A stretch of DNA of 64,000 nucleotides, from positions 33,406 through 97,405 of the forward strand of contig JABSRD010000008.1 in NCBI GenBank assembly GCA_013215285.1. The letters run 5' to 3'. Below, piece after piece: positions 52,739 through 54,290 of this stretch (the stretch's first letter is position 1; the number at the start of each line of letters is the position of its first letter). The translations under genes were made by a program, and so were the position numbers. This stretch comes from Candidatus Nitrosopumilus sp. (GTDB taxonomy: Archaea > Thermoproteota > Nitrososphaeria > Nitrososphaerales > Nitrosopumilaceae). Under the pieces are notes generated by a model that saw only the letters and a list, made by a program, of their open reading frames with translations, ran no database searches and was not told the origin of the DNA.

Positions 52739-53227
52739 ATGATGAATTTAGAGCCAAAAACAATCATAGTATTAGGAGCAATAAAGCATGGAATTAATAA
52801 ATTTGAAAGAATTCAAAAAATTACACAGATTAAAGCTGAGGAATTGAATACAATTTTGGAGAAATTGGAAAATAGTGAACTAATTCAAGTTATAGAAAAA
52901 AAAGGGTTGTTAGGTAATAAGATTGAAGTTATTGTCACAGATGGAGGATCAACAAAAGTAGATGAGCAAATTCAGGAATTACAATCAAAATGGAATCAAA
53001 TGTCAATATTATACAAAACAAAAGATAAAGAAAATCTAAAGCAATGTATGGAGGATAACAAATCATTCTTCCCTACGATGATATTTTTTGGGGTCATGGA
53101 CATGATGATGTTTTCAATGATGTTCAGTATGATGGGAATGACAATGTCAAGTTATGTCCCGGCAGAAAATATACCAGATGAGGTAGACAGTTATGATTTA
53201 GATACAGAAACAGGTGAGGGAATTTAA
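52739..53227 (+). CDS. Winged-helix-like protein with a methionine-rich hydrophobic segment
   Basis: A 162-residue protein. The N-terminal 70 residues (ETIIVLGAIKHGINKFERIQ, ELNTILEKLENSELIQVIEK) look like a winged-helix domain, followed by a helix rich in Gln and Lys. The C-terminal part has an extraordinary run, VMDMMMFSMMFSMMGMTM, with 11 methionines in 23 residues, in a hydrophobic stretch. The tail is acidic (DSYDLDTETGEGI). It could be a membrane-tethered regulator or a metal (copper) sensor; this is inference. Confidence 0.6.
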   Translation: MMNLEPKTIIVLGAIKHGINKFERIQKITQIKAEELNTILEKLENSELIQVIEKKGLLGNKIEVIVTDGGSTKVDEQIQELQSKWNQMSILYKTKDKENLKQCMEDNKSFFPTMIFFGVMDMMMFSMMFSMMGMTMSSYVPAENIPDEVDSYDLDTETGEGI

Positions 53228-53282
53228 TTTTGATGTGGGGGTCTAGTGTATATTTTATACTCGATGTGAAAATAAACTATAG

Positions 53283-54290
53283 TTGATTTACAATTCTTTT
53301 GACAATCCAGGATTAGTAAAAGTACTCAAATTTTTACAAACACACAATACCGAATATCTATCAGGTCAAGATTTGAGTGATGTTTTAAGAATTAGTAGAG
53401 TTGCAGTATGGAAACATATCAAAAAAATTCAAGAGTTGGGATACACTGTTGAATCAAAACAGAAGCTAGGTTACAAACTAATTTCAAACTCAAATACACT
53501 ATTACCATGGGAAATAACTACAGGGTTAAAAACAAAAAACATAGGACAACGAGCATATTTTTTTGATTCAATAGATTCCACACAAAATCAGGCATTAAAA
53601 ATGGCAGATAATCATGAAAACGATGGTTCCATAATAATTGCAGAAAAACAAACAGAGGGGAAAGGGAGATCGGGTAGAAGATGGGAATCACCTAAAGGAG
53701 GAATTTGGTTTTCAATAATTTTACACCCAAAATTTGATATTTCAATTACTACTTTATTTCCAATTGCATCATCTCTAGCATTGTCAATTGCAATAGAAAA
53801 AATATTTAAAATATCACCAGAATTAAAATGGCCAAATGATTTAACTATCGAAGGTAAGAAACTTGCGGGAATGATTGTGGATGTGTCATTAGAATCAAAT
53901 AAAATTGAAAGTTTAGTTTTGGGGGTTGGAATAAATTTTAATGTAGACGTAAAACAAATTGAAAAATCACTGAAAGGTACACCAAATTTTTATGGAGTGG
54001 TATCACTGTATGAACAAAAAAATAATATTAAACCTCTTCAATTAGTTCAAACATTTTTGATTGAATTAGAAAAAATTTATGAATTATTGAATACAAAACA
54101 AATAAAAAAAATAATTGTGGAATGGACAAAAAGATCATCAACAATAGGAAAAAATGTAGAATTAAGTACAATAGATGGAAAAATAAAAGGAAAAGCAATT
54201 AAAATTGATGAAGATGGGGCATTGGTAGTATCAAGTAATAATAAACCAATTAGAATTATTGCAGGGGATATTACTCACGTATCAAAATAA
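53283..54290 (+). CDS. birA: Bifunctional biotin-protein ligase / repressor
   Basis: A 335-residue BirA. The N-terminal winged helix is SGQDLSDVLRISRVAVWKHI (residues about 20-45); the ligase core has AEKQTEGKGRSGRRWESPKG, LKWPNDLTIEGKKLAGMIVD and LVLGVGINFNV; the C-terminal SH3-like domain ends SNNKPIRIIAGDITHVSK. It biotinylates the acetyl/propionyl-CoA carboxylase carrier of the CO2-fixation cycle, and may repress its own genes. Start TTG at 53283. Confidence 0.92.
   Translation: MIYNSFDNPGLVKVLKFLQTHNTEYLSGQDLSDVLRISRVAVWKHIKKIQELGYTVESKQKLGYKLISNSNTLLPWEITTGLKTKNIGQRAYFFDSIDSTQNQALKMADNHENDGSIIIAEKQTEGKGRSGRRWESPKGGIWFSIILHPKFDISITTLFPIASSLALSIAIEKIFKISPELKWPNDLTIEGKKLAGMIVDVSLESNKIESLVLGVGINFNVDVKQIEKSLKGTPNFYGVVSLYEQKNNIKPLQLVQTFLIELEKIYELLNTKQIKKIIVEWTKRSSTIGKNVELSTIDGKIKGKAIKIDEDGALVVSSNNKPIRIIAGDITHVSK

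Follow-up and report, generated by a model that had tools for sequence, protein, structure and literature searches.

The open reading frame (ORF) at positions 52739..53227 of a 64,000-nucleotide stretch of DNA from Candidatus Nitrosopumilus sp. (this whole stretch is called the window in the following) encodes a winged-helix protein with a C-terminal module that is new to known families, namely a helical hairpin crowded with methionine (Met) and followed by an acidic tail. The family is confined to ammonia-oxidizing archaea (AOA), and no description of it was found in the open-access literature searched. We tentatively favor, at somewhat less than an even chance, the reading that it represents a small AOA-specific adaptor, soluble or peripherally bound to the membrane, whose Met-rich hairpin would dock onto a hydrophobic client or a membrane surface. 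The parts of the gene are the following:

52739..53227, plus strand: whole gene of 162 amino acids with ATG start, comprising winged helix, long helix, Met-rich hairpin and acidic tail (ORF call)
52751..52939, plus strand: winged-helix domain, residues about 5-67 (AlphaFold, PadR/MarR matches)
52940..53017, plus strand: long helix, residues 68-93 (AlphaFold)
53027..53056, plus strand: short amphipathic helix before the hairpin, residues 97-106 (AlphaFold)
53060..53134, plus strand: Met-rich helical hairpin with helix 108-117, turn G118-D121 and helix 122-132 (AlphaFold and conservation)
53150..53227, plus strand: acidic disordered tail, residues about 138-162 (AlphaFold confidence score pLDDT <50, net charge about -10)

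The 23-residue stretch MIFFGVMDMMMFSMMFSMMGMTM (residues 114-136) contains 11 Met, at residues 114, 120, 122, 123, 124, 127, 128, 131, 132, 134 and 136; the 18-residue string quoted in an earlier note on this DNA covers 10 of them. That note had called 11 Met in 23 residues highly unusual, and the count bears this out. Among the 66 non-overlapping ORFs of the window (18,870 amino acids with 2.5% Met), which were the only background used, the runner-up stretch of this length has 5 Met, and the binomial probability of at least 11 Met of 23 amounts to 3e-12 per 23-residue segment at the overall Met rate and to 1.3e-9 at the Met rate of the hydrophobic segments of the window. The relatives were compared in a set of 107 non-redundant sequences, 79 of them from the taxonomic family of the window genome itself (f1), 23 from f8 and five from f2/f3; the mean number of Met in the corresponding 28-residue segment is 11.1, 8.9 and 9.6, respectively. 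Low G+C content as the source of many ATG codons was considered as well and is not supported, since the f8 members keep the Met-rich segment at loci of 52-57% G+C.

To follow the distribution of the family, 300 genomes of the order were searched with a profile built from 28 relatives. Matches occur in 207 genomes; 182 genomes reach values below 1e-20, here called strong, and every one of them belongs to one of the four taxonomic families f1, f2, f3 and f8. With the same settings the archaeal AmoA model PF12942 finds 190 genomes, again all in these four families, and 164 of the AmoA-positive genomes contain a strong match of the Met-hairpin protein. The 18 strong matches without AmoA fall in the same four families, many of them in incomplete assemblies, and a class-wide genome sample yielded no further strong match outside these families. 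The tie to copper-dependent ammonia oxidizers that was drawn in the earlier note is thus reflected in the confinement of the family to AOA. Since the four families may share descent, this restriction says little about function and is no argument for copper by itself. The protein marks AOA, which are globally important nitrifiers, almost universally and, at the sensitivity of this search, exclusively. Named records with the family include Nitrosopumilus, Nitrosarchaeum, Nitrosopelagicus and Cenarchaeum. The protein is not strictly essential because some complete AmoA-positive genomes (e.g., G199 and G067) lack it or show weak matches only. In the window genome this ORF is the sole full-length member, and the search there revealed no convincing second Met-hairpin protein (next match E 0.18). 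Genomes of f8 often harbor two to five copies, and tandem or close pairs of the gene were seen in Nitrososphaera-like genomes (L131, L134). Nitrososphaera viennensis has four copies (G031:C1 at 981450, 1316961, 2119081 and 2321550). The Met-rich hairpin is under selection, as it is kept from Nitrosopumilus-type to Nitrosocaldus-like genomes at identities down to about 33%.

Two AlphaFold models were obtained with different query sequences (pLDDT 84.7 and 81.6), and they are not independent evidence because their alignment is largely the same. In both, the winged helix spans residues 6-66, the long helix 68-93 and the short helix 97-106, followed by helices at 108-117 and 122-132 and by a disordered tail, and both split the Met-rich segment at 118-121 with a block-mean pLDDT of 86-92. 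Residue 118 is Gly and residue 121 is Asp, Asn or Ser in all 107 sequences. These are the residues expected as helix C-cap and N-cap, respectively, and there would be no need for them in a straight membrane helix. Four diverged paralogues (L171 and L166, L167, L168) retain G118, D/N121, F125, S126, M128, F129 and M136, and their positions 122/123/127/130/133 are K/E/R/K/D in L171 and T/K/E/K/N in L167. The frame of the hairpin can therefore fold with a polar outer face, and this tolerance of charges argues against an obligatory burial in the membrane. It suggests that the additional Met of the main family form an exposed hydrophobic surface of Met, Ser and Gly. The group of L166, L167 and L168 has a rebuilt N-terminal domain and a polar hairpin and lacks the acidic tail.

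According to the reading favored here the protein would be built from a winged helix and a long, probably dimerizing helix followed by the short helical hairpin. The inner face of this hairpin (F125, M128, F129, M132, M136) would pack on the protein itself; M122, M123 and M127 of the window protein, together with S126, S130 and G133, would constitute an exposed and flexible Met-rich outer face. We propose that this outer face docks onto a hydrophobic client helix or the membrane interface in a manner similar to the Met-rich grooves of SRP54-M and Sgt2/STI1. The acidic tail may keep the protein soluble and its aromatic tip FDFDIGF may cover the Met surface as long as it is empty.

This tail carries a mean net charge of about -8 to -11 and its end in the relatives is a conserved tip of the sequence GGFDFDIGF. 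In f1, 70 of the 79 sequences show the core pattern D[FILW]D[IVL][GN][FVI]-stop; f8 tails end in forms such as GGFDSF, and others in GGFDVNF or DFGDVNI. In 12 AOA genomes the DNA pattern for D[FIL]D[IVL]GF-stop matches this family alone. The tip is also missing in all four paralogues without the Met-rich outer face (L171, L166-168). The window protein has no tip either and ends with TGEGI, its gene being 2 bases short of the relatives near position 53216. A remnant is still readable downstream:

53220..53246, plus strand: tail-tip relic in the +1 frame, EFNFDVGV then stop (DNA alignment, translation)

The loss in this copy is either a recent frameshift or an assembly error, and in the nearest relatives L003 and L043 the tips are partly eroded. 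In outline the tail resembles that of bacterial single-stranded DNA-binding protein (SSB), which is disordered, rich in Gly and Asp and closes with Phe at the end of an acidic tip; here no OB fold is present and the tip FDFDIGF differs from that of SSB.

That a winged-helix-like domain precedes the Met-rich segment, as stated in the earlier note, proved to be real. The AlphaFold secondary structure (H6-16, H22-29, H33-45, E49-56, E59-66) and Foldseek both reveal the helix-helix-helix-strand-strand order of this fold. Profile matches in the PDB at the winged helix are PadR/MarR proteins (E 0.003-0.06), and Foldseek retrieves PadR/MarR structures with probability 1.00 over the N-terminal part at a query-normalized TM-score of 0.37-0.47. 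In Pfam, NCBIfam and PHROGs the window protein has no match above the cut-off, and other members show only weak matches to several helix-turn-helix (HTH) families; since all Pfam and NCBIfam matches stay below the cut-off, the fold can be given but no named family. Weak matches to FGAM synthase, SARAF and NADH dehydrogenase chain 3 were taken to be fortuitous. The most conserved stretch of the domain is the wing turn KKG(W/F/L)(L/F)GxK. At the position of the recognition helix (residues 32-45) the polar or basic character expected for DNA is not found; the mean net charge is -3.6 in f1, -2.3 in f8 and -1.0 in f2/f3, and residue 35 is Glu or Asp in 103 of the 107 sequences, whereas the BirA helix encoded by the neighboring gene has a charge of +3. 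As the helix usually responsible is acidic, a DNA-binding role is unproven, and the partner of the winged helix may be something other than the DNA major groove, e.g., a protein, RNA or a membrane surface. A winged helix followed by a long helix is shared with PadR/MarR regulators (ST1710 2gxg/3gfj, YusO 1s3j, Listeria PadR 6abq), which differ from the protein presented here in the recognition helix and have no counterpart to the Met-rich hairpin and the tail. MarR/PadR proteins dimerize via their C-terminal helices, and by analogy with this fold the long helix is probably a dimerization helix.

Among the other explanations the earlier note had proposed that the Met-rich segment senses copper, i.e., that the thioethers of its Met bind Cu(I) and thereby alter the activity of the winged helix. 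The extreme Met content and its conservation in AOA, the confinement to AmoA-bearing families, the domain of DNA-binding type and the many possible Met pairs at i, i+3 or i+4 would fit this proposal. Within f1 pairwise retention in the segment is 0.86 for Met compared with 0.28 (Ile), 0.42 (Leu) and 0.38 (Val), a contrast that is partly inflated by the fact that most Ile, Leu and Val of the segment stand in place of Met; in the N-terminal part Met retention is 0.64. These values point to a preference for Met itself, so that the pattern named in the earlier note as speaking against its idea, loss of Met with hydrophobicity kept, does not occur within f1. Across clades, however, the expectation of conserved Met holds for the content only and not for the positions. 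Solely M114 (106/107) and M128 (107/107) are universal; in f8, Ser occupies position 127, Phe or Leu position 131 and Phe or Met position 124, and Met takes the place of Phe at 129. The triads 127/128/131 and 122/123/127 occur in 0 of 23 f8 and 0 of 5 f2/f3 sequences, none of the tested triads is common to all clades, and the 107 sequences contain no conserved His or Cys, so that a conserved set of at least three Met, Cys or His ligands is absent. Where Met is replaced, a hydrophobic or small residue (I, L, V, F, A, S, T) takes its place. It seems to be a composition that is conserved in every AOA clade, with shifting positions, and not a set of ligands. Genes for copper transport or cuproproteins do not adjoin the gene in the 65 named loci; two f8 copies have cupredoxin-domain neighbors (L132:225-2351 and L161:710-2407), which may be chance because AOA encode many cupredoxins. 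The main text of a copper-limitation transcriptome of Nitrososphaera viennensis (PMC7785015) does not mention such a protein. Copper sensing thus finds no support in ligands or in gene neighbors, and we regard it as improbable.

Less doubtful, although still unlikely, is a membrane-tethered one-component regulator, in which the Met-rich segment would insert as hairpin or single helix and keep the winged helix close to the membrane, similar to ArnR/ArnR1. C-terminal membrane domains are known from archaeal HTH regulators, and those membrane-bound proteins of Sulfolobus share with the present one an N-terminal HTH and a hydrophobic C-terminal part (PMC6396743). What sets the present protein apart is its Met-rich segment of 28 residues, interrupted by a conserved break, and its acidic tail, and a sensor domain between HTH and membrane part as in ArnR is not found, only the long and the short helix being located there. 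The mean Kyte-Doolittle hydropathy of the segment of about 1.4, rising to 1.66 across 19 residues, is in line with a tether, and an N-in topology would be consistent with the Lys-rich stretch before the segment and the acidic tail behind it. Insertion was scored with a residue insertion scale, summed in simplified form. The best 19 residues reach +2.8 (rank 17 of the 66 ORFs); the nine ORFs of the window that most clearly encode membrane proteins score between -0.5 and -3.3, and the segments of the diverged paralogues +6.5 to +11. This scale is not decisive since a score of +3.8 was obtained for the N-terminal hydrophobic segment of a paralogue from the window genome (L163:1492-1953, G000:C22), which precedes the same winged helix and counts as a point for the tether. 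This unfavorable score, the predicted helix break with its invariant Gly and Asp/Asn/Ser, the charged face of the homologous paralogue segments and the acidic recognition helix speak against a tether, and the membrane segment considered in the earlier note is weakened by the first three at least in the form of one straight helix. The gene beside L163 resembles, by eye, a prohibitin/SPFH protein. Somewhat less probable than a tether is a winged-helix regulator with a buried hairpin, acting on DNA or the transcription machinery, in which flexibly packing Met form the core of a homodimer or oligomer. The known dimerization of MarR/PadR proteins would be in accordance with such an assembly, paired hairpins could bury each other's hydrophobic faces, and the C-terminal part has no solved relative; but the strong preference for Met over Ile and Leu and the unique tail tip would be left unexplained, and the structure prediction refers to a single chain.

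The preferred reading of a docking adaptor leans on functional likeness to known Met-rich surfaces. The SRP54 M domain offers a Met-rich groove for hydrophobic segments (PMC2905702), and its Met-rich helical surface is common to both proteins by analogy only; SRP54 has a GTPase domain, which is lacking here. Met-rich grooves of the Sgt2/SGTA C domain and of STI1 also hold hydrophobic segments (PMC8010706), and in ubiquilin a tail-like placeholder sequence shields the STI1 groove (PMC13083928). Thus, Met-rich helices are shared with these domains too, and their flexible groove-shielding sequences resemble the role proposed for the tail tip. STI1-type domains are eukaryotic and consist of five amphipathic helices; here a hairpin and one short helix are present, and no sequence match was obtained. 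Several results count against the docking adaptor. Homology to SRP54-M was rejected (hhalign against the SRP54 of the window genome, probability 0.2%), and neither profiles nor fold comparison linked the protein to SRP54-M, STI1 or any chaperone, the PDB profile search with the C-terminal part giving no match and Foldseek matching the winged helix only. From genome context no link to chaperones emerged. In the window protein, and partly in L003 and L043, the tip is lost and the Met face intact, which uncouples the two. Moreover, most members have a segment with hydrophobic residues on almost every side, as would also fit a membrane hairpin, and the polar paralogues (L171, L166-168) are small in number, with a function that may have changed.

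A further-reaching version, which appears decidedly improbable, regards the protein as an AOA lineage-specific client-binding protein derived from a winged-helix regulator, in which the winged helix would dock onto a partner, the hairpin would handle hydrophobic segments and the tip would serve as its own placeholder. If this were true, AOA would have a chaperone or targeting factor that arose separately from SRP54, Sgt2 and ubiquilin, with clients such as segments of the numerous membrane subunits involved in ammonia oxidation. Handling of hydrophobic segments or sensing of the membrane would make the protein a lineage-specific part of building or monitoring the ammonia-oxidizing membrane, and as a regulator it would be among the few that are specific for AOA.

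The gene neighborhood is of a housekeeping type. Directly downstream of the Met-hairpin gene lies:

53283..54290, plus strand: birA-type biotin protein ligase with its own HTH (library matches)

In 50 of the 56 loci holding both genes birA follows on the same strand within at most 80 bp. The homologue of Nitrosopumilus maritimus also has birA beside it. Upstream, on the opposite strand, a CoA-binding gene, a 137-aa gene and a YchF-type GTPase are located. Typical neighbors in the 65 named loci are birA, the CoA-binding gene, YchF, a TPR protein and TFB, i.e., not copper genes. Since the surroundings in f8 and f2/f3 differ from the f1-type locus, no partner gene is conserved across all AOA. A scan for promoters and terminators gave the same number of sites as in shuffled sequences, and it models bacterial promoters, which is not applicable to archaea. 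In some clades (L053:4044-4952 and similar) a gene that looks epimerase-like by eye is found between the CoA-binding gene and the Met-hairpin gene. In the f8 genus g49 (L137, L139, L140, L141) a gene of similar length (186-190 aa) adjoins the Met-hairpin gene on the same strand; it has no Pfam match in L137 and is a NUDIX hydrolase in L140.
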